DNA of 64,000 nucleotides from Hyphomicrobiales bacterium (GTDB lineage: Bacteria; Pseudomonadota; Alphaproteobacteria; Rhizobiales; Aestuariivirgaceae): NCBI GenBank assembly GCA_016185245.1, contig JACPNZ010000051.1, positions 62,001-126,000 of the forward strand. The letters run 5' to 3'. Positions 1,086 to 14,329 of the stretch are shown in pieces. Both the position numbers and the translations under genes were made by a program. Below the pieces are notes generated by a model. That model was given only the letters and a program-made list of their open reading frames with translations. It was not told where the DNA came from and ran no database searches. Positions within the stretch are counted from its first letter, which is position 1. Each line of letters starts with the position of its first letter.

Positions 1086-1670
1086 CTACCGCAGGCCGTC
1101 CTCACCCTTGATTTCGCTGGCCTTGAGGCCGCCGACGCGCGGCAAAGGTCGTCCGCCCGAGGTGACGGCGACGGCGACCATGATCTCATTGGCGCGGGGC
1201 GCGTCGTTCACCCGCACTTCCATGCCATCGAAGTGGCTGCGGACGAAGGCGGCGTCCTTGTGGCCCAAGGGAATGTCGAGGGCGACACCGAGGCCGCCAC
1301 GCTTCTTGGACGATGGGATGAGGGCCGCCCCCTTGCCCAGCAGTTTGCGGACGGGGGCGCCGAGCTTGGGGTGGAGAATGGCGGCGGCATGTTCAAGCTC
1401 GCCGTTCTCGCCCACCGCCGCAGCCTTGCCGTAGCTCTGAACCTCGGTGCCGGGAATGCCGAGCGCTGCCACGGCACGCTCGGCCAGAAGACCGCCCAGC
1501 TCCTCGCCCATGTCGATGAGAGCCGAGAGGTCTTCCCGGTAGATGCCGGCGAAGGGATTTTCGATCACCGCCACGGCGGCGGCGCGGCGGATGGGCGGCA
1601 CAACCGGCTGACCCTGCTCGGACAAGGTTTCGTCGACGAAGGTGACGAGTTTGCGGATCTTGGCTTTCAT
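1086..1670 (-). CDS. amino acid synthesis (AA_synth, DUF1185) family protein, second copy
   Basis: A 194-residue protein of the AA_synth family (PF06684). The one structurally studied family that I know of has a chorismate-mutase-like fold and was only suggested to work in amino acid metabolism; no reaction is established. The start is the ATG at 1668-1670, which overlaps the upstream paralogue's stop as ATGA, so translation is coupled. It has exactly the same length as the neighbour and shares NPFAG, VRSHFD, DAPRANEI and the C-terminal IKGEDGLR, so the two arose by tandem duplication. Last gene of the six-gene Mo-hydroxylase/reductase operon; probably a downstream enzyme of that pathway (inference). 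Confidence 0.85.
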   Translation of the reverse strand: MKAKIRKLVTFVDETLSEQGQPVVPPIRRAAAVAVIENPFAGIYREDLSALIDMGEELGGLLAERAVAALGIPGTEVQSYGKAAAVGENGELEHAAAILHPKLGAPVRKLLGKGAALIPSSKKRGGLGVALDIPLGHKDAAFVRSHFDGMEVRVNDAPRANEIMVAVAVTSGGRPLPRVGGLKASEIKGEDGLR

Positions 1671-2251
1671 CTCAACCCATCCTCTCCCTTGATGTCGGCC
1701 GCCGCAAGGCCGCCCATGCGGGCGTGAACCCGGGGCCCGGTGGTCATCACCAGGCCGAACACGATCTCGTTCGCACGAGGTGCATCGGGCACGCCCACTT
1801 CCATGGCGTCGAAGTGGCTGCGCACATAGGAAGCATCGATGTGGGTGATAGGGATATCGAGGCGGGCGCCGGGTCCGCCAACCTTCTTGGCCGAGGGCAC
1901 GATGGCCTTGGCGCCGCCCAGCACTTCGCGCATGGCGTAGCCTCCCGGCACATGCCACAGGGCGCCGTGCTCGATCTCGCCCGTCGCGCCAACGATTGAG
2001 CCCTTGCCGTAGCCTTGGATCGCCTTTGCCTCGCCGCCGAGTGCGGCCACCAGCCTTCGGGCCATGTCGATGCCCAAGGGCTTCAGGTCGTCCATGAAGG
2101 AGGCGATCTCAGCGTGGTAGCTCCCGGCGAAGGGATTGGCGATGACCGCGAGGATCGCCCCGCGCCTGAGGGGGGTTGCCGCCACCGGCCCGCCCTCGTG
2201 GAAAATCTCCTCGATCACCGTCAGAAACTTGCGGATCGTCACGTCAGCCAT
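1667..2251 (-). CDS. amino acid synthesis (AA_synth, DUF1185) family protein, first copy
   Basis: A 194-residue AA_synth (PF06684) protein starting MADVTIRKFL at the ATG 2249-2251. The start lies inside the last codons of the UPF0280 gene (8-base overlap), and the stop overlaps the second copy's ATG. Shared blocks with the second copy are NPFAG near residue 38, a YGK block in the middle, VRSHFD, DAPRANEI and the terminal KGEDGLR. The divergence between copies (for example GYGKGSIVGATGEIEH here against SYGKAAAVGENGELEH) suggests distinct subunits or activities rather than a recent duplication. Function unknown; context places it in N-heterocycle breakdown. Confidence 0.85.
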   Translation of the reverse strand: MADVTIRKFLTVIEEIFHEGGPVAATPLRRGAILAVIANPFAGSYHAEIASFMDDLKPLGIDMARRLVAALGGEAKAIQGYGKGSIVGATGEIEHGALWHVPGGYAMREVLGGAKAIVPSAKKVGGPGARLDIPITHIDASYVRSHFDAMEVGVPDAPRANEIVFGLVMTTGPRVHARMGGLAAADIKGEDGLR

Positions 2252-3113
2252 TGGCGGAAAGCCTTTGCTCGGGGCCCAGGGGAACCTGGCCCACGGTGCG
2301 GGTTTCGCCGGCCAGATGCAAGGCGCAGGCGATGACGAATTCACTTTCAATCATGGCTTCGGCCGCAGCCACGCCATGCTCAAGGGCCGCAGCGATCTCC
2401 GCCGGGGTGAGCGGACCCACGGCCCGCGTCACCAATCTCGCGCCGAGATCGCTATCGGGCTGGATGTCGGAAGCGGCAACCCGTGTCACCGCCGGATGGC
2501 CGGGAAGGTCGACGGCATTGGCGATGAGGGTCGCGGCCGCATCGGCGCCGCTCGCCGTTGCCGCCAGCACGGTGACGGCATCGGCGATGCCGAAGGAGAA
2601 GCTTCGCCCGCGCCAGCCGCTGGTGGCGATGCCGCGCACCGGATCGGTCCAGTGGATTAACGCATGGGTGAACAGGCAGGGCTCGTCCGGCCGGTCGACC
2701 ACGCCGACGCGATATTCCTGCCAGGGGGTCAAATGAATGGCGATATCGCCGCCGTCATTGACATGGGCGCGCTCGACCTCGGCGACGGTGACCATGGCAT
2801 AGAGGACTTCCTCGGCGACGGCGCCCGCCACCGCCGCCATCGGCGTAATGAAGGTGTGGCGAGAAAGATCGTAAGTCGCCCGCCACATGCGCCGGGCGAC
2901 GGACCCTTGCGGCAGAATATCGGTGGGAGCGCGCAACAGCGGCAGCTCGGTGCATAACTCGTCGAGGATGGTGGAGAAGCGGACGCGGGCTGCCTCATAG
3001 GCGCGGGCGACCTCGGCCTCCGGCCCGTCGGCGCCGACAATGAGATCGATGGGGCCGTCGTGCAGGTGCATCCGGCGACCGCCGGGCAGCATGGCGACCT
3101 GCAGGCGATTCAC
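2244..3113 (-). CDS. UPF0280 family (ApbE-like) protein
   Basis: A 289-residue member of UPF0280, a branch of the ApbE (FAD:protein FMN transferase) superfamily. The start is a GTG at 3111-3113 sharing bases with the TGA of the preceding reductase gene (GTGA), so the two are translationally coupled. No ATG is available near this point. ApbE enzymes attach FMN to threonine or serine of target flavoproteins. The clostridial 6-hydroxynicotinate reductase is known to carry covalent flavin, and the gene directly upstream encodes its homologue, so this protein is a good candidate for that modification. That role is inferred; UPF0280 has no assigned activity. Confidence 0.8.
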   Translation of the reverse strand: MNRLQVAMLPGGRRMHLHDGPIDLIVGADGPEAEVARAYEAARVRFSTILDELCTELPLLRAPTDILPQGSVARRMWRATYDLSRHTFITPMAAVAGAVAEEVLYAMVTVAEVERAHVNDGGDIAIHLTPWQEYRVGVVDRPDEPCLFTHALIHWTDPVRGIATSGWRGRSFSFGIADAVTVLAATASGADAAATLIANAVDLPGHPAVTRVAASDIQPDSDLGARLVTRAVGPLTPAEIAAALEHGVAAAEAMIESEFVIACALHLAGETRTVGQVPLGPEQRLSANG

Positions 3114-4561
3114 GGCGCGGCCTTGAGGGGCCAGGGATTGTCGGGGTGCGGACCGATCAGCCGGCGGCCATCGCCGGCCATTTCGCGCACGCTGCGGATA
3201 TTCTCCATGTGGCCGCCGAGGACCGCGTAATCGTCGCGGCGCAGGGTGAATTCGATGGGTGCGACAAGGGCCGGGGTGGGCACATAGCCGAAGGCATTGG
3301 CGGGAAGCCGGGTGACATCGACCATGAAGGTGATGCCGCCGCCCGGCCAGACATAGACGGGGGCGCCGCCGCAGGTGACGCGGGTGCGCTCGTCCTTGAC
3401 CGAGCGGGTGAGGCGCACCGGATTTTCGGTGACGCCGGCGCGCAGCGATCCGCCGGCACCGCCCATGAACAAGACCGTGGTCAGCGCCGGCTCGCAGTTC
3501 TCGGCGATGCGCTCGACGGATAGCTTGAGGGGCGCCGGCATTTCCCTTTCGACCGGCCGGAGCTCGCCATCCAGTTCGAAATAGGCGAAATGCTCGCCGG
3601 TGGTCGAGACCATCAGCATACGCAAGCCGGGCCAGGCTTCCTTCGAATCGAAGGGCCTGAGGATGGTCAGGGGATCGGAGAGATCGGTGCCGCCCCAGCC
3701 GGTGCCGGGCTGGGCCACCTTGAAATAGCGCCCCGGCGTGGACCGGTGTCCCTTCATGCGGATGCCGGTTTCGGGCACGCCGAGAAACTTGCCGGCCTGA
3801 TGCTCCGACAGCACTCCGGTGATGTGATCGTCGACCACCACCACCTCGTCGACATGGCCCTGCCATTGCCTGGCGAAAAGGCCGATGGTGGCGGAGCCGC
3901 AGCCCACCCGCATGCGCTCCTCCAGCACGCCATTGATGATTGGCGGCTTGCCCGCCTCGATCGTCACCCTGGCGCCGCCATCGACGCTGGCATCGACCGG
4001 CTTGCCGTTGCACAGATCGAGGAGCGCCTCGCAAGTGACGCGGCCCTCCTTCTTGGAACCGCCGGTCAGATGGCGGACCCCACCCAAGGACAGCATCTGG
4101 GAGCCATACTCGGCGGTCGTCACATGGCCCACCTGCTCGCCGGCAACGCGCACGGCAGCGCATTCGGGCCCCAGATGCCGGTCGGTGTCGATCTTCACCT
4201 TGACGCCGCAATAGCTGAAAATGCCTTCGGTGACGACGGTCACCATGTCGACGCCGTCGACTTCGGCGGCGACGATGAAGGGGGCGGGCTTGTAGTCGGG
4301 ATAGGTGGTGCCGGCGCCGATAGCGGTCACAAAGGTCGAGCCCGGCTCGATCATGCGGCCATCCCAGTCGCGGCTGCGCTCGAGGAAGGAGACGACCTTG
4401 CCGCCGCCCGCGATGGTCTTCTCGAGCAGCACATGGGGATCGACGCGCACCAGATTGCCGCCGATATTGGCATAGCGGTCGCAGGCGCCGCGCAGTCCAT
4501 CGCGGATGTAGCACAGCACCGGACAGGCATCGCAGCGGATCTTGCCGTCGGTGTCGCTCAT
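3110..4561 (-). CDS. 6-hydroxynicotinate reductase-like flavo-iron-sulfur protein
   Basis: A 483-residue protein resembling 6-hydroxynicotinate reductase, which in Eubacterium barkeri reduces 6-hydroxynicotinate to tetrahydro-6-oxonicotinate with ferredoxin and contains covalent flavin plus Fe-S clusters. The N-terminus has C10, C13, C17 and C27 (CxxC-x3-C-x9-C), suited to a 4Fe-4S cluster. Other cysteines lie near 118, 134, 177, 184 and 221. VGCGSATIG at 219-227 contains GSAT (222-225), loosely like an ApbE flavinylation site. ATG at 4559-4561 overlaps the hydroxylase stop. The pairing with a molybdenum hydroxylase matches the nicotinate pathway order, but the true substrate is not proven and no enamidase gene is present. 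Confidence 0.75.
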   Translation of the reverse strand: MSDTDGKIRCDACPVLCYIRDGLRGACDRYANIGGNLVRVDPHVLLEKTIAGGGKVVSFLERSRDWDGRMIEPGSTFVTAIGAGTTYPDYKPAPFIVAAEVDGVDMVTVVTEGIFSYCGVKVKIDTDRHLGPECAAVRVAGEQVGHVTTAEYGSQMLSLGGVRHLTGGSKKEGRVTCEALLDLCNGKPVDASVDGGARVTIEAGKPPIINGVLEERMRVGCGSATIGLFARQWQGHVDEVVVVDDHITGVLSEHQAGKFLGVPETGIRMKGHRSTPGRYFKVAQPGTGWGGTDLSDPLTILRPFDSKEAWPGLRMLMVSTTGEHFAYFELDGELRPVEREMPAPLKLSVERIAENCEPALTTVLFMGGAGGSLRAGVTENPVRLTRSVKDERTRVTCGGAPVYVWPGGGITFMVDVTRLPANAFGYVPTPALVAPIEFTLRRDDYAVLGGHMENIRSVREMAGDGRRLIGPHPDNPWPLKAAP

Positions 4562-7305
4562 GCTGAACCTCCCCTGGCCTTGATGGCGGCGAGCACCCGG
4601 TCGGGCGTTGCCGGGGTTCTGGTCATACGCGCTCCGCTAGCTCGAGCAATGGCGTTGAGAATGGCGGGGGCGGTGGGGATCAAGGCCTGCTCGCCCACCC
4701 CCTTGGCGCCGAAGGGTCCGACCGAGGAGGCGCATTCGATCAAGATCGAGCGGACCGGCGGTACGTCGCCGATTGTCGGTATCAGGTAGTCGTGCAGGTT
4801 CTCGCCGCCGCCGGGGATGAATTCCTCCATCAGTGCCATGCCGATGCCTTGTGCGACACCACCCTCGATCTGGCCTTCGACAAGCACCGGATTGATGGCG
4901 CGGCCGACGTCATGGGCGGCGGTGACTGAAAGCACTTTCACCGTGCCGAGGCGCATGTCGACCTCGACCTCGGCCAGATGGGCGCCGAAGCCATAGACGG
5001 CATAGGGCGAGCCCTGGCCGTCGGCGTCGAGCGGCGTGGTCGGGGGATCGAAGCTTTCCTCCGCACACAGAACATAGCCGAAGCGGTCGGTGGCCAGGCT
5101 GGCGAGGGCCACAGCCCTGAGCAGATGCTGGTCGCGCACCAGGATCGAGCCCGCTGCGATCTCGATGGCGGCATCGGGCCCGGCATTGGCCAGCCGCAGC
5201 ATGGCATGGCGGAGTGCGCGGCCCGCCCGTTCCGCCGCCTTTCCCGAAACGAAGGTCTGGCGCGAGGCCGAGGTCTTGCCGCAGTCGGGTGTGAGATCGG
5301 TATCGGCGGAGACGAGATCGACGAGCCCCAAAGGCAGGCCTACGGCATCGGCGGCGATCTGGGCGATCACCGTGTTGGAGCCCTGGCCGATGTCGACGGC
5401 CCCCTGGTGCAGCGCCAGCCTTCCATCGGCTTTGAGGCCGAGGCGGATGGTCGAAGGATTGGGCAGCGAAGTGTTGCCGCAGCCATAGAGCATGCCGGCG
5501 ACGCCGGCGCCGCACCGGCGCATGGGGTTTGCCGCGTTGTGGGCGGTGGCGGCGCGGTTTGCCTCCGTCCAATGGGGGCGGAGTGCCTCGAAGCACTGGC
5601 GAATGCCGACGCCGTCGCCCAAAACCTGGCCGGTCACCGTCGGCGTATCATTGCCGAGGGCGTTGGCGATACGGAATTCCAAGGGATCGATGCCGAGCCT
5701 GTCGGCCAGCATGTCGAGGAGCTGTTCCTGAGCGATCACCGTCTGGGGCACGCCGAAGCCGCGGAAGGCGCCGGCCGGCACGCAGTGGGTGAGCACGGCG
5801 CGGGAGATTGCGCGATAGTTCGGCACCACATAGGGGCCGGCCGCATGGACCGGCACCCGGTTGGCGACGGTGGGGCCCCAGGAGGCATAGGCGCCAGTGT
5901 TGAACTCGCCCGAAAAATCCATGGCGAGGAGGCGGCCATCGCGGCCGGCGGCGATCGCCGAACGCATGCGGGCGGGATGGCGCTTGGTGGTCGCGGCAAT
6001 CGATTCCGGCCGCGTATAGACCATGGCGCAGGGCTTTTCCGTCGCCCATGCGGCAAGGGCGACAAAGGGCTGCACCGAAAGATCGAGCTTGGAGCCGAAG
6101 CCGCCACCGCAGGCCGAGGGGACGATGCGCACGTCTTCGGGGGCAATACCGAGGATCGCCGCCGTATCGTTGCGGTCGAGATAGGGCGACTGGGTGGAGA
6201 CGGTCATTTCCAGGCGATTGCCGATACGCCTGGCCCAGCCTGCCTCGGGCTCGACATAGGCATGTTCGACAAAGCCCGTTTCGAAGGTGCCCTCGACGCG
6301 GCAGGGCGCGGCGGCCATGGCTTTCTCGACATCGCCCCTCGACACGCGGCCCTCGATCAGCACGTTGCCGGGACGGCTTGGATGCAGAAGCGGCGCATCG
6401 GGGCTGAGTGCATCGTCGATGGAGAGGTGCTCCGGCAGCTCGTTCCAGGCGACCGGAAAGCCCGCGAGATCGAGGTGGGCGACGGCCTCCCTCTCGCCCA
6501 CCACGGCGGCGATGGCCTCGCCCTTGAAGCGGGTTTCGGCGGTGGCGAAGACCGGCTGGTCGGCGAAGGCCGGTATGACGCCGAAGAGATTGCGGCCGGG
6601 CACGTCCAAGGCCGTCAGCACACGGACGATGCCGGGATGGGATTTGAGCCATGGGCCGATCTCGCCGAGCACGAAGCCGGCACGGTGATGGGGGGCGCGG
6701 ATCGCCCTGACGTAGAGCGCATCGGCGGGAATGGCATCGGCACCGAAGGACTCGCGGCCGTTAATCTTCGCTTCGCCGTCGAGGCGCTCGATGCGGCTGC
6801 CGACGGCGCGGCCGGCGGCGGGCATCGGAGTTTTCGCCACGGTGCCGTCGCAGGCGGCTTCGACGCCAGCGATGATCTTGCGGTAGCCGGTGCAGCGGCA
6901 GAGAACGCCACCCAGCGCCTCGGCGATTTCGCCAGCGGCGGGACGCGGCAAAGTTTCGAGAAGAGCGGCGGCGGCGACCAGCATTCCGGGCGTGCAGATG
7001 CCGCACTGGGCGGCACCGTGGGCGAGGAAGGCGGCCTGCAGGTCGGCCCCTTTGCGCGTCTCACCGGCAAGGCCCTCGATGGTGACGACGCGGGCGCCTG
7101 CGACCTGAGCTGCCGCAACGAGGCAGGCGCAGACGGGGGCGCCATCGAGCAGCACGGTGCAGGCGCCGCAATCGCCGGCATCGCAGCCCACCTTGGTACC
7201 GGTGAGGCCGAAGCCGTCACGCAGCAGCACGGTGAGGCGCGTCGCCGGGGCTACCGTCGTTTGCGCCAGCTCGCCATTGAGGGTGAAGCGGATGGGCTCA
7301 CCCAA
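4558..7305 (-). CDS. molybdenum hydroxylase: fused 2Fe-2S and molybdopterin subunits
   Basis: A 915-residue xanthine oxidase-family protein in which the usual small Fe-S and large Mo subunits are one chain. Cluster ligands are C41, C46, C49, C61 (plant-type) and C101, C104, C136, C138. The molybdopterin domain (about 165-915) has CGGGFGSK, GAFRGFGVPQ and a C-terminal FGAKGVGEQ with the catalytic glutamate. The FAD subunit is the gene just upstream. No ATG fits the N-terminus. I chose the TTG at 7303-7305, 9 bases after GGAG and 4 bases after the upstream stop; an ATG at 7392 would force an 83-base overlap. It would hydroxylate an N-heterocycle or aldehyde; nicotinate or a relative is likely from context. 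Confidence 0.85.
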   Translation of the reverse strand: MGEPIRFTLNGELAQTTVAPATRLTVLLRDGFGLTGTKVGCDAGDCGACTVLLDGAPVCACLVAAAQVAGARVVTIEGLAGETRKGADLQAAFLAHGAAQCGICTPGMLVAAAALLETLPRPAAGEIAEALGGVLCRCTGYRKIIAGVEAACDGTVAKTPMPAAGRAVGSRIERLDGEAKINGRESFGADAIPADALYVRAIRAPHHRAGFVLGEIGPWLKSHPGIVRVLTALDVPGRNLFGVIPAFADQPVFATAETRFKGEAIAAVVGEREAVAHLDLAGFPVAWNELPEHLSIDDALSPDAPLLHPSRPGNVLIEGRVSRGDVEKAMAAAPCRVEGTFETGFVEHAYVEPEAGWARRIGNRLEMTVSTQSPYLDRNDTAAILGIAPEDVRIVPSACGGGFGSKLDLSVQPFVALAAWATEKPCAMVYTRPESIAATTKRHPARMRSAIAAGRDGRLLAMDFSGEFNTGAYASWGPTVANRVPVHAAGPYVVPNYRAISRAVLTHCVPAGAFRGFGVPQTVIAQEQLLDMLADRLGIDPLEFRIANALGNDTPTVTGQVLGDGVGIRQCFEALRPHWTEANRAATAHNAANPMRRCGAGVAGMLYGCGNTSLPNPSTIRLGLKADGRLALHQGAVDIGQGSNTVIAQIAADAVGLPLGLVDLVSADTDLTPDCGKTSASRQTFVSGKAAERAGRALRHAMLRLANAGPDAAIEIAAGSILVRDQHLLRAVALASLATDRFGYVLCAEESFDPPTTPLDADGQGSPYAVYGFGAHLAEVEVDMRLGTVKVLSVTAAHDVGRAINPVLVEGQIEGGVAQGIGMALMEEFIPGGGENLHDYLIPTIGDVPPVRSILIECASSVGPFGAKGVGEQALIPTAPAILNAIARASGARMTRTPATPDRVLAAIKARGGSA

Positions 7306-7309
7306 GGGG

Positions 7310-8143
7310 TTATGCTCCCGCGGCGCGGTCGAGCGCCCGGCCGATGAGTTCAAGTGCTGCACCCTTCCGGTAGGCGGCCGTGGCGCGGACATCGTCGATC
7401 GGGGTGAGCGAGGAAATGTGTTTTGGTTTCACTTGTGTCGATGGCCTGATGCCCGGGGCGAGGTCTTCGAGATCGCGTTCGAGACCTGGAAGCCGCTGGG
7501 CCACGGCCGAGGCCGAGCCGACAGCCACCCGGACATCGGTGAGTTGTCCCTTGCCGTCGCGCCCGACGCTGGCCGCCACCATGACGATGGAGATGACCAG
7601 ATAGCGCCGGGCACCAAGCTTGACGAAGGCCGAGCGTTGGGTTTCCACCGGACGCGGCACCAGGATGCTCGCCAGAATTTCGCCGGGCTGAAGGGCGGTG
7701 CGGCGATAGCCGGTGATGAAGGATGACAGCGGCAGGCGGCGAAAGCCGCTGGGGCCGGCCAGTTCCACCTCGGCATCAAGGGTGAGAAGCGGCGGCACGC
7801 CGTCGGCGGCGGGCGAGGCGTTGCACAGATTGCCGGCGACGGTGCCTCGGTTCTGGATCTGCAGCGAGCCCACTTCGCGGGCGGCCTCTTTCAGGCAATC
7901 GAAGGCGGGCGGCAGGCGGGCCGCGATCACCTCGCTCCAAGTGGTGGCGCCGCCGATCCTGATCCAGTCACGCTCGATGACGATGCCGCGCATCTCGGTG
8001 ACGCCCGAGAGATCGACGATCGCCTCCGGCAGGGGCTGGCCGACATGGGCCGGATAGACATCGGTGCCGCCGGCAAGGAGAAGGGCATGGCCTTGGGATA
8101 GGGCCGCGACCGCCTCCTGCAATGTCCGGGGCCGCGCGTACAC
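7310..8143 (-). CDS. FAD-binding subunit of the molybdenum hydroxylase (CoxM/XdhB-like)
   Basis: A 277-residue FAD domain protein of the CO dehydrogenase medium-subunit type. LLAGGTDVYP (about 22-31) and QNRGTVAGNLCNASPAAD (about 100-117) are the two pyrophosphate-binding motifs; TPIDDVRATAAYR is the typical C-terminal block. The start is the GTG at 8141-8143, 7 bases after a strong GGAGGAAG ribosome site; longer reading to 8266 has no such support. First gene of the operon. It transfers electrons from the Fe-S domain of the next gene product to an acceptor. Confidence 0.88.
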   Translation of the reverse strand: MYARPRTLQEAVAALSQGHALLLAGGTDVYPAHVGQPLPEAIVDLSGVTEMRGIVIERDWIRIGGATTWSEVIAARLPPAFDCLKEAAREVGSLQIQNRGTVAGNLCNASPAADGVPPLLTLDAEVELAGPSGFRRLPLSSFITGYRRTALQPGEILASILVPRPVETQRSAFVKLGARRYLVISIVMVAASVGRDGKGQLTDVRVAVGSASAVAQRLPGLERDLEDLAPGIRPSTQVKPKHISSLTPIDDVRATAAYRKGAALELIGRALDRAAGA

Positions 8144-12556: not shown

Positions 12557-13044
12557 AGCTCGCCCGGCCCATTCCACTGAGCAAGGACGCCTTCGCGCCC
12601 TTTGGCGATGTGGTGGAGGTGGAGGGCGCGGCGCGCATTCCGATCAACCAGGGCTTTGCCGAGCGCTTCAACGATCTGGCCCGGGTCGATGTGGCAAGTG
12701 AGGGGGGCGCGGTCAACATCAGCATCGTGACGGCGAGCCCGCGGCCGCAGCCTATCGCCATCACGCTGATGGAGCGCCATCCGCTGGGCAGCCAGATTTT
12801 CTTTCCGCTGCAGGATCGGCCGTGGTTGGTGCTGGTGTGCGGCGATCCGCTCGATGCCGGGAGCTATCGTGCCTTCGTGGCGACCGGGCGGCAGGGCGTC
12901 AACTACGCCCGCAACATTTGGCATCATCCGTTGCTGGTGTTCGATGCCGGAAGCCGCTTTATGGTGGCCGACCGCAAGGGGCCTGGCTTTAATCTCGAGG
13001 AAATGTTGCTGCCGGCGGGGAAGAAGCTGTCGCTCACGGCGTGA
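12553..13044 (+). CDS. allA: ureidoglycolate lyase
   Basis: A 163-residue AllA-type ureidoglycolate lyase, cleaving ureidoglycolate to glyoxylate and urea. Typical features are LSKDAFAPFGDVVE at the N-terminus, ERHPLGSQIFFPL with the metal-site histidine and glutamine region, and GRQGVNYARNIWHHPLL. The start is a GTG (12553-12555) overlapping the allantoicase stop (GTGA). Its 3' end overlaps the convergent guaD gene by 11 bases. The glyoxylate it makes feeds the gcl/hyi/glxR genes near 30 kb. Confidence 0.93.
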   Translation: MKLARPIPLSKDAFAPFGDVVEVEGAARIPINQGFAERFNDLARVDVASEGGAVNISIVTASPRPQPIAITLMERHPLGSQIFFPLQDRPWLVLVCGDPLDAGSYRAFVATGRQGVNYARNIWHHPLLVFDAGSRFMVADRKGPGFNLEEMLLPAGKKLSLTA

Positions 13045-14329
13045 CCGGTAAACGTTCGTGCACTTTCTTGCCGGCGATGTAGGTGGCCCGCACGGCGCGG
13101 TCGTCGCCGAGGATGGCAAGCGAGAACAGCACGTCTTCCAAGGATTTCGACACTTCCTGGCGGCTGGCCAGAACCGGCGTGGCGGCAGGATCGAGAACTA
13201 TGAGGTCGGCGAACTTGGTCGTCTCGAGGGAGCCCACATCGGCGAGGCCCAGGCGCTCGGCATTGCCGCGGGTTGCCAGATGGAAGAGCTCGAAGGCGGT
13301 GGGCTTGTAGCCCGCCAGCATCTGCACCTTGTAGGTTTCGCCGAGTGTTGCCAGCATCGAATAGCTGGTGCCGCCGCCAACGTCGGTGGCAACCCCGATG
13401 CCGACCGGCCGCCCCTCCTTGCGCAAATGGGTGAGGCGCATGAGCCCCGAGCCCAGGAAGGTGTTCGAGGTCGGGCAATGGACGACGGTCGAGCCCGACT
13501 CGGAAAGCCTCTGGCATTCGCGATCCGAAAGATGAATGCCGTGGGCGAAGAAACTGCGCGGACCCAGGAGGCCGAAGCGATCGTAGACGTCGGTGTAATC
13601 GACAGCCTGCGGGAACAGTTGTTTGACCAAGGCAATCTCGCCGGGGCTTTCCGAGAGATGGGTCTGCATCAGCGCGCCATCGAGAGAGGCGAGCAGTTCG
13701 CCGGAAAGCTTGAGCTGGGCTTCGCTGGAAGTAACGGCAAAGCGCGGCGTCACGGCATAGCGGAGCCGGCCTTTGCCGTGCCAGGCGCGGTAGAGTTCTT
13801 CCGACTCGCGGGCTCCCGTCTCGGGCGTGTCTTGCACTGTGGGGATGGCATTGCGGTCCATCATGGTCTTGCCAGTGACCAGCGCCATGTTGCGGCGGTG
13901 GGCGGCGGCGAAGAGAGCCTCGGCGCAAGGTTTGTGCACCGAACAGAAGGCCAGAGCCGATGTGGTCCCATGACTGGCGAGACGATCGAGGAAGGTTTCG
14001 GCGGCGCTGGCGGCGTAGGGTCGATCCGCATACTGACTTTCTTCCGGAAAAGTGAAGCGGGCGAGCCAGTCGAGCAGATCCTTTCCGGGGGCGGCCAACA
14101 TACGGTATTGGGGAAAATGGATGTGGGCGTCGATCAACCCCGGCATGATCAGCATATCGCCATGATCGTCGACCGGGTGGGTGCTGTGGGCGGCGGGGAG
14201 GTTTGCGGCGGAGCCCGCCCACAGGATGCGGCCGTCGTCGCCCACCACAATGGCACCCTTCTCTTCATGGCGCACGTCAGCGTGGGAGGCGCCGAAACTG
14301 ACGGTCTGACCCTTGATCACCCGGCTCAT
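13034..14329 (-). CDS. guaD: guanine deaminase
   Basis: A 431-residue amidohydrolase converting guanine to xanthine and ammonia. PGLIDAHIHFPQ carries the first metal histidines, QTHLSESPGE the guanine deaminase-specific segment, FAHGIHLSD a further ligand histidine, and ATDVGGGTSYSML the catalytic aspartate. Length is normal. The ATG at 14327-14329 overlaps the uraD stop, so it is the last gene of the uraH-xdh-transporter-puuD-uraD-guaD run. Its product xanthine is the substrate of the upstream xdhAB. Confidence 0.95.
   Translation of the reverse strand: MSRVIKGQTVSFGASHADVRHEEKGAIVVGDDGRILWAGSAANLPAAHSTHPVDDHGDMLIMPGLIDAHIHFPQYRMLAAPGKDLLDWLARFTFPEESQYADRPYAASAAETFLDRLASHGTTSALAFCSVHKPCAEALFAAAHRRNMALVTGKTMMDRNAIPTVQDTPETGARESEELYRAWHGKGRLRYAVTPRFAVTSSEAQLKLSGELLASLDGALMQTHLSESPGEIALVKQLFPQAVDYTDVYDRFGLLGPRSFFAHGIHLSDRECQRLSESGSTVVHCPTSNTFLGSGLMRLTHLRKEGRPVGIGVATDVGGGTSYSMLATLGETYKVQMLAGYKPTAFELFHLATRGNAERLGLADVGSLETTKFADLIVLDPAATPVLASRQEVSKSLEDVLFSLAILGDDRAVRATYIAGKKVHERLPVTP

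Follow-up and report, generated by a model that had tools for sequence, protein, structure and literature searches.

A six-gene operon of a Hyphomicrobiales bacterium very probably codes for the upper steps of a reductive nicotinate pathway

Introduction

A six-gene operon in a Hyphomicrobiales bacterium raises two questions: which N-heterocycle do its enzymes attack, and what opens the ring? The operon lies in a window of 64,000 nucleotides (G000:C45:62001-126000; "the window" means this whole stretch) of a 3.5 Mb genome that is 97.2% complete. The original prediction, made from the sequence of the window, described an unassigned pathway that hydroxylates and then reduces a pyridine or other N-heterocycle, with two AA_synth proteins perhaps replacing the ring-opening enamidase. 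The pathway is less novel than that: reductive breakdown of nicotinate by aerobes has been described in Azorhizobium and suggested for Bradyrhizobiaceae SG-6C, where a conserved cluster contains a 6-hydroxynicotinate reductase (2012, PMC3511419), and a Sulfitobacter plasmid is annotated with the window's gene order. We conclude that the operon very probably codes for the upper part of a rhizobial-type reductive pathway of nicotinate breakdown, here with a hydroxylase whose domains are fused and an enamidase gene located elsewhere.

Results

A reductase-like protein, a molybdenum hydroxylase and an unlinked enamidase orthologue

The six open reading frames (window positions 1086..8143) all lie on the minus strand and are open throughout. 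The coupling first proposed for them was confirmed from the sequence, with overlaps of GTGA at 3110-3113, ATGA at 4558-4561, 8 bases at 2244-2251 and ATGA at 1667-1670; G+C at third codon positions was 0.79-0.85 for all six genes. The proposed families also held, those of the flavin adenine dinucleotide (FAD) subunit, the fused hydroxylase and both AA_synth proteins by Pfam, and the names of the other two through annotated relatives. The genes are as follows.

7310..8143, minus strand: FAD subunit of a molybdenum hydroxylase (FAD_binding_5 and CO_deh_flav_C; Pfam 5e-42, 1.5e-08); accompanies fMO in related loci
4558..7392, minus strand: fused [2Fe-2S]/molybdopterin hydroxylase (fMO), proposed nicotinate 6-hydroxylase (Pfam MoCoBD_1/2, Fer2_2, Fer2, Ald_Xan_dh_C)
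3110..4561, minus strand: 6-hydroxynicotinate reductase-like protein (HNR), named after annotated relatives; CxxCx3Cx9C near the N-terminus
2244..3113, minus strand: UPF0280 protein (ApbE superfamily), proposed dedicated HNR partner; NF003322 above cut-off, same-position relatives annotated UPF0280
1667..2251, minus strand: AA_synth paralogue 1 (AAS1; PF06684 4.5e-70), the subtype retained in HyuAB-type loci
1086..1670, minus strand: AA_synth paralogue 2 (AAS2; PF06684 1.6e-72), near the solved SPO0826 (2qtp)

The start of fMO is probably TTG at 7305, directly after the stop of the FAD subunit (7312-7310), rather than 7392.

HNR is a homologue of 6-hydroxynicotinate reductases, and the closest row of our HNR tree is 79% identical to it. 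It matched 26 plasmid records, 17 of them named 6-hydroxynicotinate reductase (60.8-69.4% identity) and the remaining nine 'hypothetical' or unannotated there; a search in phages gave no match. Cys10, 13, 17 and 27 are invariant in two alignments (A1, 10 rows; A2, 37 rows). Despite this strong conservation, no Pfam or NCBIfam model matched HNR at E<=0.001. For the molybdenum hydroxylase encoded beside it, nicotinate is the putative substrate; in related loci fMO and NicAB alternate beside HNR, with four changes on the HNR tree, and some of these loci hold NicAB annotated as nicotinate dehydrogenase.

The operon contains no amidohydrolase, as first noted, but the inference drawn from this fails: a gene for an enamidase orthologue lies on a different contig of the genome (G000:C33:55492-56652). 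The encoded protein is 74% identical to a Chelatococcus amidohydrolase, and its sole solved match at E<=1e-10 was the enamidase of Eubacterium barkeri (2VUN; E 2.2e-105 over 383 residues), which was also the one solved match of the Chelatococcus protein at that threshold (E 3.8e-110). Of an importer, genes for a substrate-binding protein and a permease, 77-79% like pathway-linked ones, were recognised beside it. An amidohydrolase within the window (13034-14329) was rejected as the enamidase; its best matches were guanine deaminases.

Taken as a route, the FAD subunit and fMO would hydroxylate nicotinate at C6 to 6-hydroxynicotinate. HNR, judging from its relatives, would be the Fe-S reductase that converts this into 1,4,5,6-tetrahydro-6-oxonicotinate, probably fed by ferredoxin via a ferredoxin-NADP reductase. 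The enamidase, encoded beside LIV-type importer genes, would open the lactam and release ammonia to give 2-formylglutarate, as its E. barkeri relative suggests. The hydroxylate-then-reduce idea is supported for a pyridine by inference and by analogy with E. barkeri.

Presence counts came from tblastn or genome searches because our own gene caller reported shadow open reading frames at many UPF0280 places; genomes and loci are often close kin, and the counts are not independent events. For that reason Fisher values exaggerate the significance of the co-occurrence, and we do not rest any claim on them. Among 37 congeneric genomes (G000-G036), UPF0280, the AAS1/AAS2 pair and the enamidase occurred in the same 12. 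HNR was found in 11 of these, the gap being G035 (74% complete), and as broken pieces in G031; of the 12, 11 also have fMO, G035 again being the exception and the match in G034 covering residues 12-694 of 944. The FAD-fMO-UPF0280-AAS block stands apart from HNR in G017, G025 and G028, and co-occurrence therefore does not reflect linkage only. G031 (L016, L017, L018) has, besides the broken HNR, no match at our thresholds for UPF0280, the AAS pair, the enamidase or fMO, as if the whole pathway had been lost. In the order, G040, G046, G055 and G056 have HNR, UPF0280 and AA_synth.

A constant core with exchangeable hydroxylase and ring opener

The loci compared by name were the best 80 of 589 and are biased to near relatives. 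An HNR-UPF0280-AA_synth core recurs in these 80, some of which have a contig end or a member outside the stretch. Clustering of neighbours, with names read from sequence, gave an amidohydrolase and, from our own gene caller, a MarR regulator, a LIV-type transporter, a ferredoxin-NADP reductase and a gene read as nicotinate phosphoribosyltransferase (NAPRT), the last in 16 of the 80 loci. Annotation at Neorhizobium gives nicA-nicB, hnr and hyuA-hyuB; in Comamonadaceae the annotation shows a two-gene hydroxylase and an amidohydrolase that is 69% like the Chelatococcus enamidase. Marine relatives carry a gene for a Rieske/VanA-type oxygenase between AA_synth and the importer, downstream of the former (L127:18058-19125, L139:17526-18596 and L097:14982-16019); our guess is that its product could demethylate trigonelline into nicotinate.

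Around the core, the hydroxylase and ring-opener slots vary. On the HNR tree (91 rows, made by a quick method and with several long branches) each label changes four times, and for the ring opener the starred branches force at least two changes. The rows comprised NicAB with enamidase (32), fMO with enamidase (13, including the window with its unlinked enamidase), fMO with HyuAB (6), NicAB with HyuAB (4) and HyuAB with no hydroxylase seen (2); the other 34 had no ring-opener label.

To locate the ring opener across the phylum, we used a draw of 299 Pseudomonadota genomes. The enamidase (E<=1e-60) occurred in 13, 11 with HNR and two without, the latter only 42% identical. HyuA was searched in 49 chosen genomes: 21 with HNR from the phylum draw, four with HNR from the order, two HNR-bearing congeners and 22 HNR-free controls, mostly the first such genomes in the list and not a random draw. 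It was found at E<=1e-150 in 16 of the 49, all of which have HNR. The 21 HNR genomes of the phylum draw had the enamidase only (9), HyuA only (10) or both (2; G182 and G253), and none had neither; by genus, HyuA occurred in five of nine HNR genera and the enamidase alone in four. HyuA lay in the 20 kb around HNR in six of the 10 enamidase-free HNR genomes (with HyuB too in three) and elsewhere in four.

The two ring openers were never found together in one stretch. Among 93 stretches, 47 held the enamidase (two of these at 41-42% and without HNR), 12 held HyuAB and 34 held neither inside; among 114 HNR loci, the enamidase (>=55% identity) was in the stretch in 49, HyuA in 18 and neither in 47. 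In the order, G046 and G055 had no enamidase at E<=1e-30 and G040 and G056 had one at 41-42%, and in all four HyuA (59-77%) lies beside HNR. These patterns make HyuA/HyuB a candidate replacement where the enamidase is absent. Our literature search found no paper on HyuAB in nicotinate or 6-hydroxynicotinate catabolism, its wider part covering titles and the starts of abstracts, with few subscription papers.

The broader proposal, to which we give an even chance, is a modular aerobic system with a constant HNR-UPF0280-AA_synth core. In it UPF0280 would serve the maturation of HNR specifically, AAS2 would be a new enzyme that works with the enamidase, and about half of the lineages (5/9 HNR genera of the phylum draw) would use an ATP-dependent lactamase of the HyuAB type in place of the enamidase.

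AAS1 and AAS2 follow the ring opener

Both AA_synth proteins of the operon belong to PF06684 (235.1 and 243 bits against a cut-off of 27) and are 49.7% identical to each other (96/193). AAS2 matched 2qtp (SPO0826) at E 6.1e-83; in a fold search with AAS1, 3byq and 2qtp were the sole matches at E<=0.001, and the match to a Rid protein (E 0.13) was too weak to count. These two AA_synth structures are reported to have a BCM-like fold, and the 'amino acid synthesis' label of the family is said to derive partly from neighbouring branched-chain amino-acid transporters (PMC2954203). In the nicotinate setting, branched-chain-type transporters beside AA_synth more likely import nicotinate. The AAS2-like Ruegeria pomeroyi SPO0826 is itself reported beside a branched-chain amino-acid ABC transporter and could be part of a nicotinate cluster instead of amino-acid metabolism.

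Across the 114 HNR loci, the AAS subtype follows the ring opener. AAS2 was present in all 49 loci with the enamidase in the stretch, 21 of which also have AAS1. The 18 loci with HyuA had AAS1 only (11), both (5) or none in the stretch (2), and never AAS2 only. Each class contains one pair with identical HNR (L064/L200 and L129/L131), leaving 48 and 17 distinct loci. Two loci below the enamidase threshold, Roseovarius L085 (50%) and Pelagibius L097 (cut short), carry both AAS1 and AAS2, and in G182 and G253 the pair adjoins the enamidase, away from HNR. An AA_synth neighbour was also found for four of four divergent (~42%) enamidases (L133, L135, L194, L195). This pairing, which includes two genomes without HNR (L194/G347 and L195/G297 among the loci), hints at a second pathway for another lactam.

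We tentatively place AAS1 and AAS2 at the ring-opening step or directly behind it. Our leading guess for AAS2, speculative and on balance unlikely, is that it decarboxylates (or tautomerises) 2-formylglutarate after the enamidase, committing carbon to glutarate. The tracking of the enamidase by AAS2 fits this guess, as do the reported 2-formylglutarate product of the E. barkeri enamidase (PMC7356986), an Azorhizobium route said to pass via glutarate (PMC3511419) and the homologue TgnF, which reportedly promotes the oxidation of succinic semialdehyde when trigonelline is degraded (PMC7913881). However, AAS1 occurs in HyuAB loci too, and the PF06684 member HcdD adjoins a coumarin reductase, where no formyl acid is apparent and HcdD is reported to have had no observed effect.

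UPF0280 pairs with HNR

The UPF0280 protein (289 amino acids, GTG start at 3113) scored 373.5 bits against NF003322, whose cut-off is 290 and whose description says no more than 'hypothetical protein'; it takes its name from annotated relatives that occupy the same position. We take UPF0280 to be the same as COG2122. HNR and UPF0280 occurred in an identical set of 21 of the 299 Pseudomonadota genomes, with none discordant (HNR E<=1e-20; UPF0280 E<=1e-10). DUF39 (PF01837) was found in none of the 299, and its candidacy as partner of UPF0280 among Pseudomonadota was rejected; HNR itself has no PF01837 match. We propose that HNR has in UPF0280 an obligate partner, whose role would most likely lie in maturation or cofactor handling.

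A more specific role, that of an ApbE-like flavin transferase placing flavin mononucleotide (FMN) on HNR at VGCGSA[T/S/A], is quite unlikely. The pairing with HNR is compatible with it, as are the place of UPF0280 in the ApbE superfamily (with a weak Pfam ApbE match, E 0.16) and the presence of VGCGSA in 90 of 90 HNR proteins. Yet the residue that follows is T in 84 and S in two but A in four, and A could not take FMN; moreover, the target motif of ApbE is SGA[T/S], and the HNR motif has a different order.

Could the substrate be another N-heterocycle?

Several observations weigh against nicotinate as the substrate or against the tightness of the system. For HNR, the predicted model was poor (predicted local distance difference test, pLDDT, 66.6) with no PDB match at E<=0.001, and the identity of the SG-6C protein to the E. 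barkeri reductase is 42%, a figure reported in PMC3511419 rather than measured here. The enamidase is unlinked to the operon, and loci of the window's genus have, in the stretches examined, no AA_synth beside the enamidase (L099-L110, L113, L116, L120, L121, L123 and L126). UPF0280 was not found beside HNR in six of the 114 loci; four of the six are congeners with UPF0280 elsewhere or end at a contig end, and for Acidisphaera L072 the search covered the stretch around HNR. The best family and structure matches of fMO are xanthine dehydrogenase and aldehyde oxidoreductase, not nicotinate dehydrogenase: among solved structures aldehyde oxidoreductases came first, with the E. barkeri nicotinate dehydrogenase 3hrd_A at 5.8e-73, and every NCBIfam match fell under its cut-off, the top one being Se-dependent xanthine dehydrogenase. 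In G017 and G028, HNR adjoins other NicA/NicB-like genes, only 29% like rhizobial NicB, and therefore fMO could serve another substrate there. Finally, a purine island adjoins the operon (allantoicase, guanine deaminase, urate oxidase, xanthine dehydrogenase and XdhC), and similar purine genes lie beside the FAD-fMO block in congeners.

These purine genes and the NCBIfam score of fMO would suit an operon that degrades a purine, a pyrimidine or another pyridine, with HNR and the hydroxylase shifted in substrate. We hold this to be improbable: the enamidase orthologue co-occurs genus-wide, the same core lies elsewhere beside annotated nicotinate dehydrogenase and NAPRT-like genes, and the Sulfitobacter and Neorhizobium loci are free of purine genes up to 14 kb from HNR.

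It is extremely unlikely that the AA_synth pair replaces the enamidase. That reading, first drawn from the lack of an amidohydrolase in the operon, is compatible with the BCM-like fold and with the separation of enamidase and AA_synth in this genus. Against it, the genome has an enamidase orthologue of its own, the two AA_synth genes occur in the same 12 congeneric genomes as the enamidase, AAS2 is present in 49/49 HNR loci with an enamidase in the stretch, AA_synth stands next to all four divergent enamidases, two of them in HNR-free genomes, and all 10 enamidase-free HNR genomes of the phylum draw have HyuA.

The purine island is long (window 11522-32746), running from purine to glyoxylate/glycerate genes. 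Farther along it lie a thiamine pyrophosphate (TPP) enzyme, a hydroxyacid dehydrogenase and a DUF4147/MOFRL gene, which we read as a putative glyoxylate carboligase, tartronate semialdehyde reductase and glycerate kinase.

Discussion

The operon itself extends an already reported pathway. What the comparison adds is the HNR/UPF0280 pairing, the fMO/NicAB slot, the enamidase/HyuAB slot and the association of AAS2 with the enamidase. The comparison gives candidate roles to UPF0280 and PF06684, both of unknown function, and predicts a second, ATP-dependent opening of the reduced pyridine ring by HyuAB. If the modular proposal is true, UPF0280 and AA_synth gain concrete roles.

Comparison with known systems

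The nicotinate fermentation of E. barkeri uses a hydroxylase, a 6-hydroxynicotinate reductase and an enamidase, as proposed here. E. barkeri, however, is an anaerobe whose selenium-containing hydroxylase has four subunits (the four 3hrd chains) and whose later steps are reductive, with reduction of 2-formylglutarate and a methyleneglutarate mutase. The closest likeness in gene order is a Sulfitobacter pontiacus plasmid (NZ_CP084962.1, L127), which has the FAD subunit, fMO, HNR, UPF0280, AA_synth and AA_synth in the window's order; unlike the window operon, it adjoins a ferredoxin-NADP reductase, an amidohydrolase (73% to the Chelatococcus enamidase) and MarR. In the homocysteine synthesis system of COG2122 and DUF39, as reported, the COG2122 protein is tied to one partner enzyme, as UPF0280 appears to be; the partner is DUF39 (PF01837) there and HNR here (PMC5764234). 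The cluster of Azorhizobium caulinodans, Bradyrhizobium and SG-6C is, as reported, likewise found in aerobic hosts (PMC3511419). The window differs from it in having the enamidase and importer genes on another contig, and from the Bradyrhizobium loci in having an FAD subunit and fused fMO where those have NicAB, and two AA_synth genes where those mostly have one.

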